26,311 nucleotides of DNA, taken from positions 1 through 26,311 of IMG/VR virus record IMGVR_UViG_3300027833_000193; one strand, 5' to 3'. This DNA comes from a virus. The notes beneath the pieces are model-generated. The model saw only the letters and a program-made list of their open reading frames with translations, did not search any database and was not told the origin of the DNA. A program made the translations under genes and the position numbers. Position 1 is the first letter of the stretch. The number at the start of each line of letters is the position of its first letter. Of the stretch, positions 4,208 through 26,311 are shown in pieces.

Positions 4208-4486
4208 ATGATTAAACCAAAGTCTAAGTCTAAAGCAGAAACAGAAGAATGCCGTCAATGGATCGAAGTTACAGAAACAATTGAACAACAAACCGCTAAG
4301 AACAAAGATGACATTAAGGATATTAAAAATAGTATTGACACTATTAAAAATAACCATCTGCACCATATTGAGAAAGATATGGAAAAACAGTCTAAGGCTA
4401 TTGAAAAGATCGACACAAGGATCTGGGCCGTTTTGATTATACTTGTAGTATCAACAGTAATAGGGATGGTAAAAAATGGCTTATAA
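4208..4486 (+). CDS. Coiled-coil protein with C-terminal membrane anchor (possible holin/XhlA-like)
   Basis: A 92-residue protein with a lysine-rich start, a charged helix of about residues 15-70 with heptad-like spacing (IKDIKNSIDTIKNNHLHHIE), and one membrane segment at about 72-88 (IWAVLIILVVSTVIGMV). This topology, soluble coiled coil followed by a single C-terminal helix, is like the XhlA (haemolysin) group of small phage lysis proteins and also like membrane-anchored spacers. An AGGAT box lies 5 bases before ATG 4208. The 3' end overlaps the next tiny gene by 11 bases. A lysis role fits the surrounding small membrane proteins but is unproven. Confidence 0.65.
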   Translation: MIKPKSKSKAETEECRQWIEVTETIEQQTAKNKDDIKDIKNSIDTIKNNHLHHIEKDMEKQSKAIEKIDTRIWAVLIILVVSTVIGMVKNGL

Positions 4487-4517
4487 GAAAAAAGGCAAAG
4501 GCAAAAAAAAGAAATAA
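4476..4517 (+). CDS. Lysine-rich 13-residue micropeptide
   Basis: ATG at 4476 opens a 13-codon frame reading MAYKKKGKGKKKK and ends with TAA at 4515-4517. It overlaps the 3' end of the coiled-coil gene in another frame and is directly followed by a strong ribosome binding site for the next gene. Nine of 13 residues are lysine. Very small basic peptides do occur near packaging and structural genes of marine phages, but nothing here proves translation, and the frame is short enough to be chance in A-rich DNA. The strong lysine bias and the start/stop packing are the only arguments. Confidence 0.35.
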   Translation: MAYKKKGKGKKKK

Positions 4518-4530
4518 TAGGAGAGATATT

Positions 4531-4665
4531 ATGAAAAAGAAGATATTAGATATATTAAAGAAGAAAAGAGTATGGTTAACTGCAAGCATTGTAGCTGTAG
4601 CCGTAACTGCTTGGTATATGTTACCTGCAGTATTAGGTTGGTGGTTAGCTGCACCAGCAGTATAG
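4531..4665 (+). CDS. Small single-span membrane protein, 44 aa
   Basis: ATG 4531 follows a good TAGGAGAGA site at 4518-4526 with ideal spacing; the stop is TAG 4663-4665. The protein starts with a basic head (MKKKILDILKKKR) and then one long hydrophobic stretch, residues 14-42, containing several Trp and Ala. It could be a small holin, a pinholin-like peptide or another membrane effector. It lies in a run of small genes between the two terminase subunits. The last bases of the gene enter the leader repeat that starts at 4665. The strong ribosome binding site makes translation likely; the function is not known. Confidence 0.6.
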   Translation: MKKKILDILKKKRVWLTASIVAVAVTAWYMLPAVLGWWLAAPAV

Positions 4666-4849
4666 AGAAGTGTTACACTAGTAGTATAATAGCATAATAG
4701 TATATTAAGTATTTAATTATACCAAATAAATCTAAAAAAACATCTATTAAATCTATTAAATCTACTAAAGTAATACAAACAAACCAAAAGAACTAACTTA
4801 TAGATAGACTCTGTAAGTGGAACATTAAACAAAAGGAACAGACATTATG
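4665..4849 (+). repeat. Leader cassette, copy 1 (promoter-like region and 5' leader)
   Basis: This 185-base stretch shares its two ends and part of its middle with 22615-22762. The first 29 bases (GAGAAGTGTTACACTAGTAG and on to a TATAAT at 4685-4690) are identical. A CTAAAAAAAC tract is shared, as is the last part, with GACTCTGT, GGAACATTAAACAAAAGGAAC and the start codon. The middle of this copy differs and carries a 9-base tandem repeat. Each copy ends exactly at a start codon, so the element is a portable leader with a -10 box and ribosome binding site. The -35 match is poor. Confidence 0.75.
4742..4768 (+). repeat. Three tandem 9-base repeats
   Basis: Three consecutive units, ATCTATTAA, ATCTATTAA and ATCTACTAA, lie in the leader upstream of the 84-aa gene. 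They are absent from the second leader copy, which instead repeats an ACCTAAAAAAACACAA-type unit. They may be slippage products or protein-binding iterons; three short AT-rich units are weak evidence for either. Confidence 0.6.
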
Positions 4850-5101
4850 TTATATAAAATTAAAGTTGGCAAAGAAGAACTAACAGTTCAAGCTAATAGT
4901 CAAGCTAGTGCTGAAGCATGGGTTGCTAAAAAACATGGTAAACCAGCAACAGCAGTTGAAGCTCCAGAATATCCAGAAGTAGAAGTTACTGCAACTCCAA
5001 TTGAAGAGATTGAAGCGGTAGAAGAACTAACTACACTAGAAGAATTAGCTGATGAGTGGGATGAACTAGATGAAGATGAAACTGACTCCGACGACTCTTA
5101 A
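4847..5101 (+). CDS. Acidic hypothetical protein, 84 aa
   Basis: The first half is a small beta-alpha domain (LYKIKVGKEELTVQANSQAS, then AEAWVAKKHGKPA). The second half is strongly acidic, with alternating Glu/Val then a Glu/Asp tail (DEWDELDEDETDSDDS). It starts at ATG 4847 with AAAAGGAAC nearby, directly at the end of the duplicated leader, so it probably has its own regulation. Acidic tails of this kind occur in DNA-mimic proteins, phage assembly factors and inhibitors of host nucleic-acid enzymes, but no family is recognised. The 3' end overlaps the next gene by 32 bases in another frame. Confidence 0.7.
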   Translation: MLYKIKVGKEELTVQANSQASAEAWVAKKHGKPATAVEAPEYPEVEVTATPIEEIEAVEELTTLEELADEWDELDEDETDSDDS

Positions 5102-5288
5102 CAGTTGGCGTATAGTTCCAAGAGCATTAATACTAACATATGTGGTTGCATTTTATGATGCTACACAATGGTTTATGGCCTTGCCCGACCCTACTAATGC
5201 ACAAAGCGGATTCGTGAGTGTGATTGTGGGTGCAGGAGCAGGCTTCTTTGGCATATATGTTAATGGTGGTAACAAGGAAAGTAAATGA
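5070..5288 (+). CDS. Two-span membrane protein upstream of large terminase (holin-like)
   Basis: A 72-residue protein with membrane segments at about residues 16-36 (VPRALILTYVVAFYDATQWF) and 47-65 (GFVSVIVGAGAGFFGIYV), joined by a short ALPDPTNAQS loop, with a charged C-terminus. Small proteins with this shape and loop are common beside packaging genes in marine phages and are often taken as class II holins. Two nearby ATGs (5070, 5076) are possible starts, and no clear ribosome binding site is seen because the start lies inside the previous gene. It ends ATGA with the large terminase start. Holin is the best guess, without an endolysin nearby to support it. Confidence 0.65.
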   Translation: MKMKLTPTTLNSWRIVPRALILTYVVAFYDATQWFMALPDPTNAQSGFVSVIVGAGAGFFGIYVNGGNKESK

Positions 5289-6514
5289 GTTTAACAAACC
5301 CCCAACAAGCTATATTTGATGATGAGAGTAGATTCAAATGTGTAAGTGCAGGCAGACGATTTGGTAAAACATATCTAAGCATGTATGAGATAGCAAGAGC
5401 AGCAAGGTATCCAGATCAAAGGATCTTTTATATTGCTCCCACATATAGAATGGGTAAACAAATCATATGGAAACAACTGTGTGATGAGATGAGACAGCGT
5501 AGATGGGTTAAAAAAATTAACGAAAGTGATTTAACATTGACATTAATTAATAAATCTACTATTAGTGTGCGTAGTGCAGATAACTTTGATGCTATGCGTG
5601 GAGTTAGTCTAGATTTTTGTGTATTAGATGAAGTTGCATTTATGAAAAAAGAAGTGTGGACAGATGTATTACGCCCAACACTAAGTGACAGACAGGGAAA
5701 GGCAGTTTTTATATCCACTCCACAAGGCTTCAATTGGTTTTATGATATGTGGAACTTTGCCAAGAACGCAGATGATTGGAGTAGTTTTCAATATACTACA
5801 ATTGAAGGTGGGAATGTTAAAGCTGAAGAAGTAGAATCAGCTAAAATGGACTTACCATTAAAGACATTCTTAACAGAGTATGAAGCTAGATTTGAAAACA
5901 GTGGACATTTGATATACTACAGCTTCGATATGGAAGACAATGTAAAGAGTTTCACTGAAGAAACTCCAAGAGAAGTGGTAATTGGACTAGATTTCAATGT
6001 AAATCCCATGAGTGCAGTAGTAGCCAGACGAAACAAAGAAGGATTACATATATTTGATGAAATAGTATTACCAAACTCACACACAGAAGAGATGTGCCAG
6101 GAAATACGCAATAGATATCCCAATAATCAGATAGTAGTGTTTCCAGATCCTGCAGGCCGGGCCAGAAAATCGAGCTCGAGTAGAACAGACCATGCTATAT
6201 TAGAGCAATGGGGCTTTACAGTTAAAGTAAGGCGAGCACATACTAGTGTTAAAGACAGAATAAACGCAGTAAACAGATTATGGTGCGATGCAAGTGGACA
6301 TAGAAGTATGTATGTTGACCCAATGTGTAAAGAAACTATTAGTTGCACAACAAAGCATCAATATAAAGAAGGGACAACAGTGCCTTCAAAAGGTGAAACG
6401 GGTGTGGACTATTCACACCAGAATGATGCATTAGGCTACTTAGTAGACTACTTGTATCCTATTAAACGCCCGCAACCAGAGGATACTGGAACGCAAAGAT
6501 GGGGACATTTTTAG
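5285..6514 (+). CDS. terL: Terminase large subunit
   Basis: The 409-residue packaging motor and nuclease. ATPase part: Walker A SAGRRFGKT at residues 21-29, Walker B CVLDE at 112-116, and the coupling motif STPQG at 144-148. Nuclease part (RNase H fold): VIGLDFN with catalytic Asp236, FPDPAG about 60 residues later, and HQNDALGY near the C-terminus supplying the last acidic residue. The length is on the short side but all parts are present. The start codon overlaps the previous stop by 4 bases (ATGA). The portal gene follows after 68 bases, the usual order. The packaging strategy (cos, pac or other) cannot be told from the sequence. Confidence 0.96.
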   Translation: MSLTNPQQAIFDDESRFKCVSAGRRFGKTYLSMYEIARAARYPDQRIFYIAPTYRMGKQIIWKQLCDEMRQRRWVKKINESDLTLTLINKSTISVRSADNFDAMRGVSLDFCVLDEVAFMKKEVWTDVLRPTLSDRQGKAVFISTPQGFNWFYDMWNFAKNADDWSSFQYTTIEGGNVKAEEVESAKMDLPLKTFLTEYEARFENSGHLIYYSFDMEDNVKSFTEETPREVVIGLDFNVNPMSAVVARRNKEGLHIFDEIVLPNSHTEEMCQEIRNRYPNNQIVVFPDPAGRARKSSSSRTDHAILEQWGFTVKVRRAHTSVKDRINAVNRLWCDASGHRSMYVDPMCKETISCTTKHQYKEGTTVPSKGETGVDYSHQNDALGYLVDYLYPIKRPQPEDTGTQRWGHF

Positions 6515-8089: not shown

Positions 8090-8764
8090 ATGGACGATAA
8101 TACCATAGTTAATACTGAAACTGTTGCTACTGGAGCACAGGATTCAGGAGCAAGTCAAGATAACATCCAGGAAGTGGCTTCATTTTCACAGGAAGATGTG
8201 GATAAGATAGTTGCGAAACGCTTAAAGCAAGTTCAAAAGAAATACGAAGGTATTAATGTTGATGAATATCAACAACTAAAGAGCTTACAAGAGCGTGTTG
8301 AAGAGCAGGAATTAATGGATCGTAAAGATTTTGATGTTCTCTTAAAGAAGACTAAAGACAAGTATGATAACGAAGTTGTTACACTTAAAAGTCAACTAGA
8401 GAGTGTTAAGATTGATGGTGCATTGATTGATGCCGCTTCCAAACAAAAGGGAATAGCGCCAGAGCAAATATCTAAGTTGCTTCGCGATAGTGTAAAGCTG
8501 AACTCAGCAGGTGATGTAGTAATCAATGACAATGACGGACAAGTCCGTTACAATGATGAAGCAACTCCAATGACAGTAGAACAGCTTGTAAAGGAGTTTT
8601 TGGACACAAATACTTTTTATCGTGCAGCAGGTCCAACGGGGACACAGAGCGAAGGCAATGTTTCGATAGCAAACAAACAGAAGTTTGATTTGGGGTCACT
8701 TGATATGACCAACCCTGAACACCGTAAAATCTTTAAAGAGATGAAGGCGTCAGGGAAACTATAA
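8090..8764 (+). CDS. Capsid scaffolding protein
   Basis: A 224-residue, highly charged helical protein between portal and major capsid genes. The N-terminus is flexible and acidic, then SQEDVDKIVAKRLKQVQKKY begins a coiled coil running to about residue 110 (RVEEQELMDRKDFDVLLKK). The C-terminal part ends with NPEHRKIFKEMKASGKL, a basic end typical of scaffolds that bind the capsid protein. These features match phage scaffold proteins of the DUF4355-like type. No protease signature was seen, so it probably leaves the procapsid by another route or host protease. The start is ATG 8090 with TAGGAGAA upstream. Confidence 0.85.
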   Translation: MDDNTIVNTETVATGAQDSGASQDNIQEVASFSQEDVDKIVAKRLKQVQKKYEGINVDEYQQLKSLQERVEEQELMDRKDFDVLLKKTKDKYDNEVVTLKSQLESVKIDGALIDAASKQKGIAPEQISKLLRDSVKLNSAGDVVINDNDGQVRYNDEATPMTVEQLVKEFLDTNTFYRAAGPTGTQSEGNVSIANKQKFDLGSLDMTNPEHRKIFKEMKASGKL

Positions 8765-18245: not shown

Positions 18246-19715
18246 ATGCCTTTCTTAGCACCTGCAGCCGCAGCACTAGGTGCATTTGCTGCCACAGCAG
18301 TAGGTGGATTCCTTATTAACTTAGCAGTGACCTTTGTCATTGGCAAGGTTATGCAAAAGCGTATGAAGAAAAAGATGGAAGCTATGCAAAGAGCTAACCG
18401 TCCAAGTGTTATGGTTAACACTGCTTCAAACACCGAAGCTATTCCAGCATTATATGGACAAACAAGAATTGGTGGTAACAGACTATTTACAGAATCAACA
18501 GATGGAACAGGTAACACAAGTATCAACAGTCACCTTAATATGTTGTTTAGTATATGCGAAGGCGAAGTAGAAACACTACAACAAATCTATTTTGATGATA
18601 CTATAGTATGGGATGCAGACAACGGTGGTGACTTTGAAGCTGATGGTATTCAACTTAACGGCTTCACTGGTAAGTATGAACCAGCACTAAATGCCGCATC
18701 AGGGTCTAAATTAGTATTTTACAAAGGCGCAGACAGTCAAACTAGTAACAGTTTACTACAAACAAGTATTGGTAGTCAATGGACATCAGCACACAGATTG
18801 CGTGGAATATGTTATATTGGTATGGTGTTAAAGTCAAACGCAGAGATATACAAAGGTGGATTGCCGTTAATGACATTTGTGGTTAAGGGTAAAAAGATTA
18901 AAGATGTAAGTGCATTACCAAGCAGCGTAACTCTTACAAGTGGCGCAGATCAAAACCCTGTTGATGTGTTATATGATTACATCACAAACCCTAGATATGG
19001 TAAAGGACTTGATCACGACAGCAGTGGAAACTACAGTGCAGGACTTAACATTGATTTAGATAGCTTTAAAACAGCTAGAACACAAGCAACAGGATACTAT
19101 AAAATTAATGGTATACTAGATACAAGTCAAGACTTGTATGCTAATATTGGTGAAATACTTGAAAGCATGAATGGCTTGTTAGTATTCCAAAACGGCAAGT
19201 ATATACTTAAACTTCAAAGTAGAAGTGAAACAAGTGTAGCTTCACTTACTGCAATTGATATACTATCACCAATGAGTGTGCAAATGCCAGCTAAAAGTGA
19301 CAAGTTTAATAAAGTATTAGCAGACTACAGAAATAAAGCCAGTGGCACAAATTACAATGATGATATAGTTATTGTAGAAAGTTCAACATTCTTAACAGAA
19401 GATAAAGGAACAGAACTTGAAAGCAGAATTCGTTTAGACTTAGTAGATGATGAAAGTCTTGTTACAGATATTGCAAATTACGCAATGAACTCTAGTCGCT
19501 TCCAACAAACAGTGTCATTTGACGCAGCACACACGGCATTAAGATTGCAGTGTGGAGAGATTATTAAATTAAACTTATCTGAATTTGGCTGGAGCACAGC
19601 CGATGGTTATACAGACGGTAAGCCGTTTAGAATAACACAAATGAGTCTCAACCCAGACAATAGTATATCAATCACCGCAACCGAATATGAATCAACAATT
19701 GAATTAATACCATAA
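18246..19715 (+). CDS. J-like tail tip attachment / central hub protein
   Basis: A 489-residue protein with a hydrophobic Ala/Gly-rich N-terminus (residues 1-34), then a basic stretch KVMQKRMKKKMEAM and the segment IPALYGQTRIGGNR, which resembles the start of phage J-like hub proteins. The central part includes DVLYDYITNPRYGKGL and a region KINGILDTSQDLYANIGEILESMNG, both common features of Phage-tail_3 domains. The C-terminus (GEIIKLNLSEFGWS .. PFRITQMSLNPDNSISITATEYE) is another conserved piece. It is much shorter than lambda J and lacks its C-terminal receptor domain; receptor binding is probably done by the separate fibres. The hydrophobic start may contact the membrane. Confidence 0.82.
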   Translation: MPFLAPAAAALGAFAATAVGGFLINLAVTFVIGKVMQKRMKKKMEAMQRANRPSVMVNTASNTEAIPALYGQTRIGGNRLFTESTDGTGNTSINSHLNMLFSICEGEVETLQQIYFDDTIVWDADNGGDFEADGIQLNGFTGKYEPALNAASGSKLVFYKGADSQTSNSLLQTSIGSQWTSAHRLRGICYIGMVLKSNAEIYKGGLPLMTFVVKGKKIKDVSALPSSVTLTSGADQNPVDVLYDYITNPRYGKGLDHDSSGNYSAGLNIDLDSFKTARTQATGYYKINGILDTSQDLYANIGEILESMNGLLVFQNGKYILKLQSRSETSVASLTAIDILSPMSVQMPAKSDKFNKVLADYRNKASGTNYNDDIVIVESSTFLTEDKGTELESRIRLDLVDDESLVTDIANYAMNSSRFQQTVSFDAAHTALRLQCGEIIKLNLSEFGWSTADGYTDGKPFRITQMSLNPDNSISITATEYESTIELIP

Positions 19716-20630: not shown

Positions 20631-20659
20631 TTGACAAATAGACTAACTTGTGTTACACT
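20631..20659 (+). promoter_or_regulatory. Sigma-70-type promoter of the early/replication module
   Basis: A perfect -35 box TTGACA (20631-20636), a 17-base spacer and TACACT (20654-20659, 4 of 6 to consensus). Transcription would start near 20666, about 45 bases before the first gene of the module. The -10 lies inside GTGTTACACTA, a motif also present in both leader repeats. Confidence 0.8.
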
Positions 20660-20711
20660 ATATAAGTAAAGTAAGTTAATGATTAACTACTCAAAACCAA
20701 AGGAGATACAT

Positions 20712-21155
20712 ATGTTATACATATACCCAACATTAAGAAAATTACAAGCAAGAAGCCACGGCAGACAAGCTCATGCTAGTGTGCAAGTAAAACTCACACA
20801 AGGTGAGAAAAACAAAGTCCTAGAGCTGTTCCACAAACACAGCAACTTTTACCAAGAATATCCAGAATTGTATTATGAACACAATGACAGGATTGGTCTT
20901 GACAACAGAGCTTATACCACATCAAAAATAATTAAAGATATTAATGCTAAGATTCCAGACTGGATGCAAAAGAAGAATGACTTGTATGAAAGTTATTTAA
21001 TCCGTCATAATCATATAGTAACTGTAACAGCAGAGAAAATATGCAAAACTCACGACACTAGAGTAGCTGATGAGTATATTGATCAATACTTTATAGACTA
21101 TGGAACACCAGCGCCAAGACACACTCCAAGCAACAACTTGTGGGAAACAGACTAA
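20712..21155 (+). CDS. Unknown early protein, 147 aa
   Basis: ATG 20712 is preferred over the in-frame ATG 20679 because an AAAGGAG (20699-20705) lies at ideal distance. It is the first gene after the early promoter. The protein is basic, helical and His/Tyr-rich: SHGRQAHASVQVKLTQGEKNK, then FYQEYPELYYEHNDRIGLDNRA, and LYESYLIRHNHIVTVTAEKI. There is no membrane segment or known motif. Its TAA shares one base with the next ATG, so it is coupled to the next two genes. Being first and coupled to a polymerase-like gene, it may act in replication or early takeover; this is inference from position only. Confidence 0.7.
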   Translation: MLYIYPTLRKLQARSHGRQAHASVQVKLTQGEKNKVLELFHKHSNFYQEYPELYYEHNDRIGLDNRAYTTSKIIKDINAKIPDWMQKKNDLYESYLIRHNHIVTVTAEKICKTHDTRVADEYIDQYFIDYGTPAPRHTPSNNLWETD

Positions 21156-21547
21156 TGAGAGAACATAACCCCCCAATGTTCTTGAAGAAACTAAGTGCAG
21201 CTCATTTATTAAAACAAATAGAAGCTGGAACTTACTTCAAGGACATTGACACTACAGTAAGAGACATTGTTAAATGGGAAAACATTCAACGAGATGAAGA
21301 ACCACATGATACAGCCAAGTATGATCCAGGAACTGAACCTGCTATACTACTAGCAGTATTGCGTGTGGTAGCTGTAACAGAAACAATGAGTGTTGGTGGT
21401 GTAACAGCACTAGTAGCAGGTGTATTGCTTGATGCTAAACTAGAAGATGCATACGATATTGTAAAACAAAACAAAGTAGAGGCTGCAGTGCATAAGAAAA
21501 AGTATGCATATGTAAGAAAGCTACTAGACAGCTTGGGACCAAAATAA
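21155..21547 (+). CDS. Unknown early protein, 130 aa, with hydrophobic centre
   Basis: I take ATG 21155, overlapping the previous stop as TAATG; a GTG at 21140 in the same frame would extend it by five residues. The N-terminal half is helical (FLKKLSAAHLLKQIEAGTYF). Residues 62-93 are hydrophobic with a small-residue turn (PAILLAVLRVVAVTETMSVGGVTALVAGVLL), which could be a buried helix pair or one membrane hairpin. The C-terminus is Lys-rich. No ribosome binding site is visible, so translation probably depends on re-initiation from the upstream gene. The family is not recognised. Confidence 0.65.
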   Translation: MREHNPPMFLKKLSAAHLLKQIEAGTYFKDIDTTVRDIVKWENIQRDEEPHDTAKYDPGTEPAILLAVLRVVAVTETMSVGGVTALVAGVLLDAKLEDAYDIVKQNKVEAAVHKKKYAYVRKLLDSLGPK

Positions 21548-22647
21548 TGACACACTACACCCCCAACTTCAATGATCCTAGAGTAGTTAAAAGAGTAAAC
21601 AGTGCAATAGGATTTACTAATGCACTGCTTAGTGACAAACCAAAACAAATGTATACACGCTACATAGACAAACACTTTGGTGCAAGCAGTCACAAGTTAA
21701 GCAAGTATCTTAGGTCACATCTATTGATATGCATTGACACACACTACGATATGAAGAATGGGTTGTGTAAGATGTATATAAGAAACAAACGAGGTATGCT
21801 TTACCTAAGTGACATGATACAGTATAACACCAGCAAACACACTAGTCAAGAAGCAACACAGTATAGCACAGGATTAAACTGGGCAACCAATACATATGCA
21901 GAACAAATATCAAGTGGTGACTTTGATTACGAAGAAAGATCACATAGATTGTGTAGTCCTATACAAGGCATACGCACTACAGTGCGAGAAGAGATGTTTC
22001 ATAACAGTGGATACAGTTATAACTATGATATAAGCACTGCCGCACCTACAATAATGTATCAACACTATATGCAATGTGCAGACTATTGTGGATTGGTATT
22101 GGAAACTATAGAAGACTATATAGCTAATAAGGCACAGCGTAGAGCAGAACTATGCAAAGGTGCAAACCTAGAAGCTGATGTAGTTAAGAAGATATTCAAT
22201 GGATTGTTTAACGGTGCGAAGCTCAGCATACACTATAACACGCAGTTATTCAAACTAATAGGCTGTGATGTAGCTAAGATGCGATACTTACAGCAGCACG
22301 AGTATTTGACAGACTTAAAAGCGGATATAAAGACTATGTGGGACACTATAAGAAGTGGATTGCCTAAACAGTATTACACAGATAGATTCAACAAAAACGG
22401 ATCACCAAGAGCTAGACAATTCAATTCAAAACAAAAGTGGAACATATACTTCCAACTAGAGCGTAAAGTATTAAACGAGATGCGTGATTACTTAAAAACA
22501 CTAAGATGTAGATTCTTCCTAGAGCATGATGGATTTAGATGCACAACAAAGATTAACACAGTTGACATAAGTCAATGGATAGAGGCTGGAACAGGGTTCA
22601 AACTAACGCTTACAGAGAAGTGTTACACTAGTAGTATAATAGCGTAA
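21547..22647 (+). CDS. Compact family-A-polymerase-like protein (putative replicative polymerase)
   Basis: A 366-residue protein, coupled to the previous gene by TAATG. By eye it carries the three core motifs of the PolA/T7-RNA-polymerase superfamily. Motif A is YDISTAAP (Asp161, Ser163); motif B is VKKIFNGLFNGAK (Lys214, Gly219, Gly223), matching K-x4-G-x3-G of the O helix; motif C is LEHDGF (His327, Asp328). Spacing Asp161-Lys214 is 53 and Lys214-Asp328 is 114, against 53 and 122 in Taq polymerase (610, 663, 785). Odd points: no exonuclease domain, Asn222 in place of the O-helix Tyr, and Ala at the steric-gate place (166) where DNA polymerases have Glu. It could be a DNA polymerase, an RNA polymerase or a primase-like enzyme. 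The assignment is inference. Confidence 0.5.
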   Translation: MTHYTPNFNDPRVVKRVNSAIGFTNALLSDKPKQMYTRYIDKHFGASSHKLSKYLRSHLLICIDTHYDMKNGLCKMYIRNKRGMLYLSDMIQYNTSKHTSQEATQYSTGLNWATNTYAEQISSGDFDYEERSHRLCSPIQGIRTTVREEMFHNSGYSYNYDISTAAPTIMYQHYMQCADYCGLVLETIEDYIANKAQRRAELCKGANLEADVVKKIFNGLFNGAKLSIHYNTQLFKLIGCDVAKMRYLQQHEYLTDLKADIKTMWDTIRSGLPKQYYTDRFNKNGSPRARQFNSKQKWNIYFQLERKVLNEMRDYLKTLRCRFFLEHDGFRCTTKINTVDISQWIEAGTGFKLTLTEKCYTSSIIA

Positions 22648-22762
22648 TACTATAATAAGTATTCAATTAAACCTAAAAAAACACAATACTATGACACTTA
22701 AACCTAAAAAAACACAACAAGACTCTGTCAAAGGAACATTAAACAAAAGGAACAACAATATG
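22615..22762 (+). repeat. Leader cassette, copy 2 (promoter-like region and 5' leader)
   Basis: A second copy of the leader seen at 4665-4849. It begins inside the last codons of the polymerase-like gene, which therefore gets its C-terminal residues CYTSSIIA from the repeat. It includes the shared GTGTTACACTA motif and TATAAT (22635-22640), an A-rich middle with two CCTAAAAAAACACAA units, and the same GGAACATTAAACAAAAGGAAC end, stopping at the start codon of the next gene. It probably gives that gene its own promoter and ribosome binding site. Confidence 0.75.
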
Positions 22763-23110
22763 ATAGTAGTAGAGATATATGGATATGAAAACAAAGAAAG
22801 AACACATTATATAAGAGAGTTCGCTGATGAAGAATCATGGGAACGAGACTATATGATAAGAAAATTATCAGGAACTTGGGTAGGGCATAAGATATACCGA
22901 GACCTAAGTATGCGAGAGTGGGCACAAATGACACCTGAACATCGTATGATACTAACACCTGAACAAAAGTTTGATAAAGAAGCTTACCTATCTAACAAAA
23001 GTGATAGTGGTATAACTATGAAACAAGTGCTGGAAGCAACAGACTATGTGAGTGGTGCACAACCTGATATTATAAATACTAACACAAACAAAGGAGCAAC
23101 CCCCAAATGA
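22760..23110 (+). CDS. Unknown early protein, 116 aa
   Basis: I choose ATG 22760, preceded by AAAAGGAAC in the duplicated leader, exactly as the 84-aa gene is in the other copy. An in-frame ATG at 22691 would put 23 low-complexity residues from the leader onto the protein. The product is charged and soluble: VVEIYGYENKERTHYIREFA, then RDLSMREWAQMTPEHRM, and a flexible Asn/Thr-rich tail. It overlaps the next gene by 4 bases (ATGA). There is no known motif. The shared leader suggests it is expressed together with the acidic 84-aa protein. Confidence 0.7.
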   Translation: MIVVEIYGYENKERTHYIREFADEESWERDYMIRKLSGTWVGHKIYRDLSMREWAQMTPEHRMILTPEQKFDKEAYLSNKSDSGITMKQVLEATDYVSGAQPDIINTNTNKGATPK

Positions 23111-23301
23111 AAAAACATATACATGATGCAGAACATAATGCACACTTAGATCAATACCGAGATGGATTGGTTAGACAAGAGTTCATCTGTTATACTAAGA
23201 CTAACAGTCGCTTGCGTAAAGAAACAGTTGTGAGAACATACTATACCAATGGTGAATACACAGATTCAAGCACTACTGAGACTATAACCGATGTCAAATG
23301 A
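23107..23301 (+). CDS. Unknown 64-aa early protein
   Basis: ATG 23107 lies 8 bases after AAAGGAG and overlaps the previous stop (ATGA). The N-terminus is His-rich (MKKHIHDAEHNAHLDQYRDG) and the C-terminus is a Thr-rich beta pattern (ETVVRTYYTNGEYTDSSTTETI). The three to four early histidines could bind a metal, but no cysteine pair or known fold supports this. It overlaps the following gene by 11 bases. Confidence 0.65.
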   Translation: MKKHIHDAEHNAHLDQYRDGLVRQEFICYTKTNSRLRKETVVRTYYTNGEYTDSSTTETITDVK

Positions 23302-23680
23302 TCAAGGCAATGCCATGAATGCTAGAGTAAAAACATTCAACAACTGGTGGCGTAAGAACAAACGCAGTCCTAAAGCTATGCTATGGTTAACTTCACACGC
23401 TAAACGCATAGCATTTGCATACAACCTACCCCCACACACTTGGGATGAGATAACCACAATAAACAAACGATTCCTACACAGTGAATACAAACGAATGAAC
23501 CGTGCTAGTGCTTGGAAACTGTGGAAGTTCACACATCCACTAAGCACAAATCGTATCGAACGCATAGGTGATACAGCAGACTATCTTATGGATGCTAAAC
23601 ATAATAAAAACACATCTAAGCCCAAAAAGGAAGTTACAGTGGTATATAAGAATAAAAAAAGGTTGACAGACCAAAGTTAA
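23291..23680 (+). CDS. Unknown basic early protein, 129 aa
   Basis: A strongly basic protein rich in Trp, Lys, Arg and Asn: FNNWWRKNKRSPKAMLWL, then HTWDEITTINKRFLHSEYKRMNR and ASAWKLWKFTHPLS. The C-terminal tail is lysine-rich (KPKKEVTVVYKNKKR). Such a make-up suits nucleic-acid binding. It starts at ATG 23291 inside the previous gene and without a clear ribosome binding site, so it is probably coupled. Its last codons overlap the promoter at 23663-23691. It is the last gene of the early module. The family is not recognised. Confidence 0.65.
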   Translation: MSNDQGNAMNARVKTFNNWWRKNKRSPKAMLWLTSHAKRIAFAYNLPPHTWDEITTINKRFLHSEYKRMNRASAWKLWKFTHPLSTNRIERIGDTADYLMDAKHNKNTSKPKKEVTVVYKNKKRLTDQS

Positions 23681-23691
23681 CCGTGTATACT
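23663..23691 (+). promoter_or_regulatory. Sigma-70-type promoter upstream of a small RNA candidate
   Basis: TTGACA (23663-23668), a 17-base spacer and TATACT (23686-23691, 5 of 6 to consensus): the best promoter match in the window. Both it and the early promoter read GGTTGACA at the -35 and continue TATA just after the -10 box. Transcription would begin near 23698. No gene follows for 300 bases. Confidence 0.85.
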
Positions 23692-24510: not shown

Positions 24511-26311
24511 GCACTAAAATAACACCACAAAGTGACAGTAACTTAGATGTTACAGTAACAGAATCAGATAACCTGGTTAGCTTAGACATTCAACCAGCCA
24601 GCTTTATTATAACAGGCGCAGGCTTAGGAACAGTAACACAAGTAATTACAGGAACAGGATTAACAGGCGGACCAATAACAACAAGTGGAACAATAGCCGT
24701 TGATTCAACAGTAGCAACACTAGATGGTAGTCAAGCCTTAACCAACAAAACAGGATTGATATCACAATGGACTAACGATGCTGGTTATATTACAAGTGAG
24801 ACTGATAACCAAACATTAAGTTTTGTAAACCCAGACTTAACAATTAGCAATGGTAATACAGTTGACATAACAATGTATGACCAGACTCTAAACACTACAG
24901 ATGATGTAACCTTTAACAGTGTTACCTCAGACTTCTTTGGTGTGCAACATTTTACAGCCAAAGCAAGAGAAACTATATCAGCAGGACAACCTGTTTACAT
25001 TAGTGGACATTCAGGCAACACACCAGAAGTAATGGTAGCTGATTATGCAGACCCAGCCAAGATGCCAGCCTTTGGTATTGCAAGTGCAGACATAGCTAAC
25101 AACACTAATGGTAGTATATCCACATATGGTGATCTTAAAAATGTAGACACAACTGGCAGTGCTGAAAGTGAAACATGGGCAGTTGGTGATAGTTTATATG
25201 TTAATGGATCAAAACTAACAAACATTAGACCCAGTAGTGAAACACAAGAAGTTCAGAAGATTGCAAAGATTATCCGTGTGCATGCTAACACTGGACAAAT
25301 GTTCCTTATGGGTGCAGGTAGATCAAATGATACACCAAACCTAGATCACTATCATGTGTTTATAGGTAATGCCGGTGGAGTTGAAAAGCGTCAATTAACA
25401 TACACAGACATATTAAACACTCCAACCATTCCAACAAACAACAATCAATTAACAAACGGTGCAGGCTACACAACCAATACTGGAACTGTAACACCTACAA
25501 GCACAGACACATTTACTAACAAATCAGGTAACATTAGCCAATGGACAAATGATGCAGGCTATTTAACAAGCGAAACTGATAACCAAACCCTATCGTTTGC
25601 CAATCCAAACCTCAGCATCTCAAGTGGCAACTCGGTAGACCTAAGTGCATTAACACCAACTTCATTAGCGTGGAGTGCCATTACAAGCACGCCAACTACT
25701 ATTGCAGGTTATGGTATTACTGATGCTTTCGATGGTGCATACAGTTCATTAAGTGGACTACCAACATTGTATGACAATGCAGCAGTAGACGCACACCTAA
25801 ACACAAACCTAGCTAATGCACAGGAAGTATTAACTTGGAGTGGATCAGATTGGAATTGGACTACACTATCAGATGTAGCAACTAGCAATGATTATAATGA
25901 TTTAGATAATCGCCCAACAATTAACAATACCACAATTAACAACAATGCAGACAACAGAATTATTACAGGTAGTGCTACAGCAAATAACCTAAATGGTGAA
26001 TCTGACTTTACATGGGATGGAACTAATGCACTTATAGATGGAACAGCATCTGACCTTACAACACCAATACTACATCTTAAAACTGATAATAGTAATTGGT
26101 TTACAGGACAATTGATGTGTAGTGATTCAAACGGAGCAGTGTTTACACAAGTAGGTAGACACAACACTGGAAGCAGTGTTTTCCAATGGAATATTACATT
26201 AGACCCAGAACACACAGAGCCTAGAACAAATGTTCCTGGTAATGGTGTAACATGGCCAGGTGATTACTTTGTGGGATTAGAAAAGAACTATTCCGACACT
26301 GATGAAATAAC
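24507..26311 (+). CDS. Large tail fibre protein, N-terminal part (3' end outside window)
   Basis: The frame is open from ATG 24507 to the window end (601 codons). It begins MSTKITPQSDSNLDVTVTES, followed by IITGAGLGTVTQVITGTGLTG and shaft repeats. A 43-codon module (NKTGLISQWTNDAGY, TSETDNQTLSF) occurs at 24741-24869 and again at 25515-25643. Between them, about residues 145-275, is a beta domain with ISAGQPVYISGHSGNTPEVM and KMPAFGIA, frequent in cyanophage-type fibres. The last ~690 bases match the window start apart from a 50-codon insert. If the ends join, the whole fibre is about 900-950 residues. It starts inside the stop of the adaptor gene. Confidence 0.88.
   Translation, partial: MSTKITPQSDSNLDVTVTESDNLVSLDIQPASFIITGAGLGTVTQVITGTGLTGGPITTSGTIAVDSTVATLDGSQALTNKTGLISQWTNDAGYITSETDNQTLSFVNPDLTISNGNTVDITMYDQTLNTTDDVTFNSVTSDFFGVQHFTAKARETISAGQPVYISGHSGNTPEVMVADYADPAKMPAFGIASADIANNTNGSISTYGDLKNVDTTGSAESETWAVGDSLYVNGSKLTNIRPSSETQEVQKIAKIIRVHANTGQMFLMGAGRSNDTPNLDHYHVFIGNAGGVEKRQLTYTDILNTPTIPTNNNQLTNGAGYTTNTGTVTPTSTDTFTNKSGNISQWTNDAGYLTSETDNQTLSFANPNLSISSGNSVDLSALTPTSLAWSAITSTPTTIAGYGITDAFDGAYSSLSGLPTLYDNAAVDAHLNTNLANAQEVLTWSGSDWNWTTLSDVATSNDYNDLDNRPTINNTTINNNADNRIITGSATANNLNGESDFTWDGTNALIDGTASDLTTPILHLKTDNSNWFTGQLMCSDSNGAVFTQVGRHNTGSSVFQWNITLDPEHTEPRTNVPGNGVTWPGDYFVGLEKNYSDTDEI
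24741..24869 (+). repeat. Fibre shaft module, copy 1
   Basis: This 43-codon unit (NKTGLISQWTNDAGYITSET and on to NGNTVDI) is repeated at 25515-25643 with many silent changes but few amino-acid changes, showing an old, protein-level conserved duplication inside the fibre shaft. Confidence 0.8.
25515..25643 (+). repeat. Fibre shaft module, copy 2
   Basis: The second 43-codon unit (NKSGNISQWTNDAGYLTSET and on to SGNSVDL). Its last codons lie in the terminal repeat and so are also present at the window start. Confidence 0.8.
25619..26311 (+). repeat. Terminal repeat, right copy with 50-codon insert
   Basis: This is the counterpart of 1-543. The insert (about 25743-25932) codes for a LYDNAAVDAHLNT..EVLTWSGSDWNW module, then YNDLDNRPTI, in frame. 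Only about five residues differ elsewhere (for example Asp/Asn, Thr/Ser and Val/Ile changes). Confidence 0.9.

Follow-up and report, generated by a model that had tools for sequence, protein, structure and literature searches.

A minimal family-A-like polymerase of small phages, with a possible role as a primase-polymerase

The mini-polymerase gene and its phage

The window (the whole stretch of viral DNA analyzed here, 26,311 nt) comes from a small marine phage and carries on its plus strand an open reading frame of 366 residues, complete from ATG to stop, which had been called at the same position in the initial annotation and whose product we refer to as the mini-polymerase. The gene closes an operon that begins with a 158 aa ORF and continues with a 135 aa ORF (Table 1); a relative of the 158 aa ORF (cluster c38) also lies upstream of the polymerase gene at two other loci (L006 and L022). 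Since the total of promoter-like sites in the operon region equals that of shuffled sequence, we regard the sigma-70-like promoter listed in Table 1 as suggestive only. Another host-type promoter-like site was seen at 23663–23691, before the tail-fibre region, again with counts not above those of shuffles.

Because a 97%-identical contig (L001) runs from the right end of the window into window position 1, and because the window ends share 147-nt and 300-nt stretches that are 95–96% identical at differing offsets (1–465 and 25619–26233), we take the window to represent a nearly whole genome, some 25.6 kb in length. The shared stretches sit within a repeat-rich tail-fibre gene and reflect a circular map with strain variation. 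Contig L001 also encodes, at 4472–5848, a 458 aa ParB-N plus N6/N4 DNA methyltransferase in place of the window's 64 aa ORF (23107–23301). Judged by gene content the phage is siphovirus-like: TerL (phrog_2, E 8e-45) and portal (phrog_145) were recognized, the genes follow a scaffold-capsid-tail-like order, and one ORF of 1040 aa is tape-measure-like. Among annotated TerL proteins the closest, at 43–46% identity, belong to phage DSL-LC06, Vibrio phages and the pelagiphages HTVC202P and HTVC026P. The initial annotation had stated that the phage has no other replication genes, and this holds as far as tested: the window has no match to PF00476, and its early ORFs gave no convincing match in Pfam or PHROG. 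No origin iterons were recognized in an iteron search. Two repeats were found elsewhere in the window, one of 70 nt (89%; 4661–4730 and 22611–22680), which contains TATAAT and whose second copy overlaps the end of the mini-polymerase gene, and one of 35 nt (91%; 4806–4840 and 22720–22754). Each precedes two operons, and they are possibly duplicated promoters.

Table 1. Positions, in window numbering, of the mini-polymerase gene, its operon and the elements of the encoded protein.
Feature	Position	Strand	Basis or remark
Sigma-70-like promoter, TTGACA-17-TACACT (suggestive only)	20631..20659	+	TG before -10; 10 of 12 matches; before the 158 aa-135 aa-polymerase operon
158 aa ORF, operon gene 1	20679..21155	+	Overlapped by the 135 aa ORF
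135 aa ORF	21140..21547	+	Stop overlaps the mini-polymerase start (TAATG)
Mini-polymerase, minimal family-A-like	21547..22647	+	ORF; AlphaFold2 pLDDT 95.6; Pol I fold matches; 62 homologues
N-terminal domain, residues 1-80, winged-helix-like (a1-b1-a2-a3-b2-wing-b3), predicted	21547..21786	+	Secondary structure, both models
Helices 81-95, 101-116 and 118-123; helix pair, predicted	21787..21915	+	Secondary structure only
Beta-hairpin with R134 and LQ element with Q140 (TxxGR / LQN equivalent)	21931..21966	+	62/62; strands 129-131 and 134-136
Motif A, YDIxxAAPTL	22018..22053	+	D161, first catalytic Asp, 62/62; A166, steric-gate position, 61/62
R199	22141..22143	+	62/62; hand-aligned with Klenow H734 (dNTP phosphate ligand), correspondence inferred
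Motif B (fingers), K214-x8-G223-A	22174..22218	+	No Arg at K-4, no Tyr at K+8
W265	22339..22341	+	Invariant, 62/62
Y301 and E305	22447..22461	+	Invariant, 62/62; helix 294-318 preceding motif C
Motif C, F-L-E-H-D-G-F	22516..22536	+	H327 and D328 62/62; D328, second catalytic Asp, at hairpin turn

Homologues and conserved residues

Searches with the mini-polymerase sequence alone were negative against Pfam, PHROGs, PDB sequences and 50,697 phage records, and yielded only one relative, a 98%-identical IMG/VR contig, when viral contigs and genomes were included. We reached its family through the tail gene at 18246–19715, which led to related phages, and then through shared gene order: two of the tail-gene relatives (L005 and L006) encode a 36%-identical protein at the same place. 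Alignment-based iteration yielded 17 and then 76 viral loci (about 75 viral contigs), together with 4 bacterial genome contigs, and the alignment used hereafter (A3) holds 62 homologues with a mean pairwise identity of 35% (minimum 20%). None of these belongs to a credible Pfam or PHROG family, there being only stray matches to unrelated families (E 0.002–0.01); PF00476 was matched by none of the 62 at E ≤ 0.01, and profile searches of PDB and Pfam with the family were empty. Using tblastn with three distant members against the 50,697 phage records, we retrieved only a Desulfovibrio phage (two records). The family is widespread and is missing from the reference databases that were searched; in the open-access literature we found no published description of it and no experiment on it.

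Invariant in A3 (62/62) are R134, Q140, Y160, D161, I162, R199, K214, W265, Y301, E305, H327 and D328, and A166 and G223 are each kept in 61 of the 62 homologues. The spacing is 24–27 between R134 and D161, always 9 between K214 and G223, and 23–25 between E305 and D328. The initial annotation had read polymerase motifs from the mini-polymerase alone, and every position that it gave was correct: D161, K214, G219, G223 and D328, with 53 residues from D161 to K214 and 114 from K214 to D328, as well as A166 (D161+5) and N222 (K214+8). Conservation of the two Asp residues among homologues, which it had set as a check, was borne out in full. Its K-x4-G-x3-G motif survives in part, in that K214 and G223 are conserved but G219 is not (Ala in 47 and Gly in 5 of the 62); likewise, Asn at the place of the O-helix Tyr is present in the mini-polymerase but is not fixed in the family, where most sequences have A, C, N, Q or S at this position. 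A chance motif match as the source of these motifs was rejected in view of the conservation across 62 homologues together with the structural model described below.

The A3 consensus near R134, S-x-R-L-W-H-P-L-Q-N, resembles, in what we take from a hand alignment, the family-A element T-G-R-L-x-x-x-x-P-N-L-Q-N-I-P; by hand alignments too, R199 and K214 presumably correspond to Klenow His734 and Lys758. A166 stands in place of Glu710, and residue 222 in place of Tyr766. Both Glu710 and Tyr766, described as universally conserved in family A (PMC4882331), are absent in almost every A3 member, with Ala at motif A +5 in 61 of 62. Absent from the A3 fingers, too, is the RxxxK of TV-Pols, position 210 being mostly V/E/P/L ahead of the invariant K214.

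Predicted fold and relation to known polymerases

Modelled by AlphaFold2 with A3, the protein showed a family-A-like palm and fingers (mean pLDDT 95.6, pTM 0.89). A fold search of the PDB returned 22 matches at E ≤ 0.001, all of them family-A DNA polymerases, including M. smegmatis Pol1 (3.7e-5), Bst, T7 DNA polymerase, Taq and Pol theta (probability 0.99–1.00). The fold check set by the initial annotation was thereby met, since the predicted fold has a palm and Pol I enzymes lead the PDB matches (E 3.7e-5, probability 1.00). The TM-scores of these Pol I-type matches are modest (0.33–0.43 by query length, with an rmsd near 10), which missing domains and a different position of the fingers may explain. 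When viral models were searched, two uncharacterized Caudovirales proteins came first (1.7e-10, TM 0.61; and 4.2e-9), and the best named matches were the helicase/primase/polymerase of Qinghai Lake virophage (2.5e-7) and the Zamilon DNA replication protein (2.5e-6). In the model, D161 ends strand 158–162 and D328 lies at the turn between strands 323–326 and 329–332, a placement like that of Pol I motifs A and C. We consider well supported a palm bearing D161 and D328, a Lys/Gly fingers helix (K214, G223), a hairpin with R134 and the lack of a nuclease domain, in keeping with the earlier statement that no exonuclease domain is present. With an RRM-like palm carrying the motif A and C Asp residues and with K-x8-G in the fingers, the features of the superfamily are met, and the mini-polymerase belongs to the family-A superfamily; its description as a compact family-A-like protein of a possibly undescribed branch stands. 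Overlooked at that stage were the N-terminal domain, the invariant residues R134/Q140 (TxxGR / LQN element) and R199, and the likeness to TV-Pols.

Residues 1–126, modelled alone, gave a pLDDT of 94.3, and a PDB fold search with this model was led by winged-helix proteins (SarZ, FOXK1, FabT and MarR types), none of them significant (E ≥ 0.45). Since the best match reached only E 0.45, we name the N-terminal domain a winged helix tentatively; it is apparently DNA-binding. The helices at 81–95 and 101–116 could form a short two-helix thumb, a counterpart of the antiparallel one that TV-Pols have ahead of the hairpin, as far as predicted secondary structure can tell.

The closest solved structures are primer-dependent DNA polymerases, and the mini-polymerase could itself be a primer-dependent, non-proofreading enzyme that extends recombination intermediates or RNA primers supplied by the host, without priming by itself; CCPol alone, for comparison, merely extends primers (PMC10061031). 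Speaking against such an enzyme, the otherwise universal Glu710 and Tyr766 are replaced in almost all members, its grip on duplex would be poor because the thumb is minimal at most, and no phage primase or helicase feeds the mini-polymerase. We hold this explanation to be unlikely, if still one to reckon with.

Over residues 116–359, profile comparison linked A3 with a protein of Desulfovibrio phage 7757 (hhalign E 1.8e-12; reversed control 0.66), the cultured phage with the nearest relative of the mini-polymerase that we found. This unannotated 760 aa protein (L088, about 8093–8344, minus strand) has the same polymerase core with large extensions. A weak link was found to MAP_030 of Microcystis phage Ma-LMM01, the best of 49 long ORFs, which adjoins a transposase; it has the pattern LQ...YD...K-x8-GA and HDG in common with the mini-polymerase and is, like the mini-polymerase family, without the RxxxK Arg. 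TV-Pols have been described in phages including Ma-LMM01 (PMC2579912), and we infer that MAP_030 is the protein meant there. Another candidate for the TV-Pol of that phage, BAF36105, was wrong, as MAP_030 matches best. An ordinary PolA profile (one phage group) compared with A3 was not significant (E 0.1), divPolA1 and divPolA2 showed no significant link to the A3 profile, and a divPolA2 search of viral contigs found no relatives.

Bacterial DNA polymerase I and T7 DNA polymerase (PF00476) share with the mini-polymerase the palm and fingers, the A-B-C order, the HD of motif C, the LQN and the A-B spacing of 53, whereas the mini-polymerase lacks an exonuclease and equivalents of E710, Y766 and R754 and has at most a short thumb; because PF00476 and E710/Y766 are unmet, we do not file it as PolA. 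The divPolA1 and divPolA2 proteins of large phages are also divergent family-A palms, exonuclease-free or inactivated, and the GRMYDLGIQNLP...YDF region of divPolA2 resembles R134-Q140-D161 of the mini-polymerase; they occur mostly in phages of 80–190 kb, alongside a regular polymerase (PMC11348598). The CCPol-MP / PolA-SSB primases of SCC-type elements are likewise exonuclease-free family-A polymerases on mobile DNA, of which CCPol makes primers de novo with its partner MP (PMC7581432, PMC10061031). CCPol keeps E710 and F762 and needs dNTPs (PMC7581432), whereas in the mini-polymerase family these positions are taken by Ala and mostly by Asn, so that ribonucleotide use is a fair prediction for the family. 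Furthermore, CCPol, a close relative of Pol I, depends on the OB-fold partner MP and is encoded beside a helicase, whereas the mini-polymerase has neither a helicase nor a recognized partner; its 158 aa and 135 aa neighbours have too few homologues for a reliable structure prediction.

With the TV-Pols (Iyer, Abhiman and Aravind 2008, PMC2579912; Sputnik V13, Ma-LMM01, mobile elements) the mini-polymerase shares the family-A palm and fingers and the two Asp residues. Further likenesses are a hairpin with an invariant Arg (R134, strands 129–136), the lack of a nuclease domain, and small viruses and recombinase-bearing elements as carriers. TV-Pols often lie beside a D5 helicase or are fused to one, an arrangement that is common but not universal. 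The mini-polymerase differs from them in having no RxxxK, no D5 helicase, an N-terminal winged-helix-like domain and a length of about 366 aa, and we do not file it as a strict TV-Pol because RxxxK and the D5 helicase are unmet. The mini-polymerase family probably works most like the TV-Pols, as a neighbouring branch.

Genomic context and proposed role

Context was compared over 44 family-bearing records of 20–101 kb, which are possibly incomplete. DnaB_C was found in one of these (the 101 kb record) and ResIII over the cut-off in one, while D5_N and PF00476 (ordinary PolA) were found in none of the 44; ResIII matches below the cut-off lie in frames of 450–674 aa and were not counted as helicases. 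As the records may be incomplete, absence from any one of them proves little, but the pattern over all 44 is strong, and the mini-polymerase is the only recognizable replication enzyme of these phages. Most of the ORFs around it are small and unknown or encode HNH-type endonucleases. At three of the four bacterial loci (L085, L086 and L087) tyrosine or large serine recombinases adjoin the gene, as has been reported for TV-Pols (PMC2579912), and CCPol too is found on recombinase-bearing mobile DNA. In the window's own phage the gene has no recombinase or transposase neighbourhood.

Two of the bacterial loci can be described further. On the Caballeronia udeis chromosome (L085:5265–13101) two tyrosine recombinase genes enclose the polymerase gene, which is accompanied by an ApeA-like HEPN defence gene; this arrangement suggests a small element of the integrative or satellite-like kind. 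On a MAG contig (L087:122–4817) a family member has a tyrosine recombinase on one side and a large serine recombinase on the other. Around two bacterial copies no convincing attachment repeats and no tRNA genes were found.

The initial annotation had offered three functions, of which primase-polymerase fits best and RNA polymerase for late genes is the weakest. A single-subunit RNA polymerase with which the phage transcribes its middle or late genes would be related to the T7/N4 type, which belongs to the same superfamily and likewise has a small residue at the steric-gate position; the mini-polymerase has Ala at the position occupied by Gly in T7 RNA polymerase and by Glu in DNA polymerases, and the 70-nt and 35-nt repeats preceding two operons (4661/22611 and 4806/22720) would suit such an enzyme. 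The solved structures matched at E ≤ 0.001, however, are exclusively DNA polymerases, with no T7/N4-type RNA polymerase among them. No promoter-recognition domain is seen in the mini-polymerase, and we infer that there is no room for one of T7 type. Its spacing of 27 between the hairpin Arg and motif A is nearer to that of Pol I than to that of T7 RNA polymerase. The family also occurs in bacterial islands with recombinases, and host-type promoter-like sites (before the polymerase operon, in the tail-fibre upstream region, and as TATAAT in the 70-mer) point away from a phage-specific transcription system, although their counts are not above those of shuffles. On the strength of the solved-structure matches and these sites, we rank this function last and hold it to be very improbable.

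Our preferred interpretation is that the mini-polymerase is the replication polymerase of the phage itself, a minimal family-A (Pol I / TV-Pol) enzyme and most likely a primase-polymerase, to which we assign a probability of roughly 0.55, the activity being inferred and not shown. D161 and D328 would carry out two-metal nucleotidyl transfer, R199 and K214 would hold the triphosphate, and the N-terminal domain may grip the single-stranded template or the phage origin. With small residues in place of the Glu of the steric gate and the Tyr of the O-helix, the enzyme might accept ribonucleotides or an initiating nucleotide and start chains without a primer. The absence of a phage helicase or primase favours a primase-polymerase that relies on the host, whose helicase, SSB, clamp and DNA polymerase III would complete replication. 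The helicase-like gene that a sister phage (L004) has at the same place and the recombinases beside the bacterial copies also count in favour of this interpretation. The mini-polymerase would act in the manner of a TV-Pol or of the CCPol-MP primase, though on its own. Against the primase-polymerase stand the lack of an identified partner protein like MP of CCPol, of a D5 helicase and of iterons, as well as the modest TM-scores to Pol I, the non-significant comparison with the ordinary PolA profile and the tentative nature of the winged helix.

The small size, the winged-helix-like N-terminus, the missing steric gate and the solitary position in the genome would also suit a dedicated primase or origin initiator, with origin binding by the N-terminal domain, synthesis of a short RNA or DNA primer by the palm and elongation left to host DNA polymerase III; no origin repeats were recognized, however, and the palm and fingers are complete enough for elongation, and we consider this restricted role rather unlikely. 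As a tentative elaboration that we would not yet rely on, the mini-polymerase may be a one-protein initiator, in which an origin-binding winged helix is joined to a thumb-poor, steric-gate-less palm that begins DNA synthesis from an RNA or mixed primer of its own making. Equally tentative is the corresponding reading of the genomes, whereby a gene of this kind could serve, without a phage helicase, primase or SSB, as the sole replication gene of a broad group of small phages and integrative islands.

To our knowledge, primases are almost all of the DnaG or AEP type, and family-A primases come only from a few mobile elements. If the primase-polymerase interpretation is true, it adds a large, apparently unannotated family of family-A primases in small phages, shows how little of the Pol I fold suffices for replication and explains how phages of 25–40 kb without a known helicase, primase or polymerase are copied. 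With Glu710, Tyr766 and RxxxK lost, the link between sugar selection and priming would be directly testable in one small protein.

In a sister phage (L004:12256–13602), another of the tail-gene relatives, a 448 aa DEAD/ResIII helicase-like gene (phrog_2467, E 2e-28) lies at the place of the polymerase gene, a possible replication-module swap.
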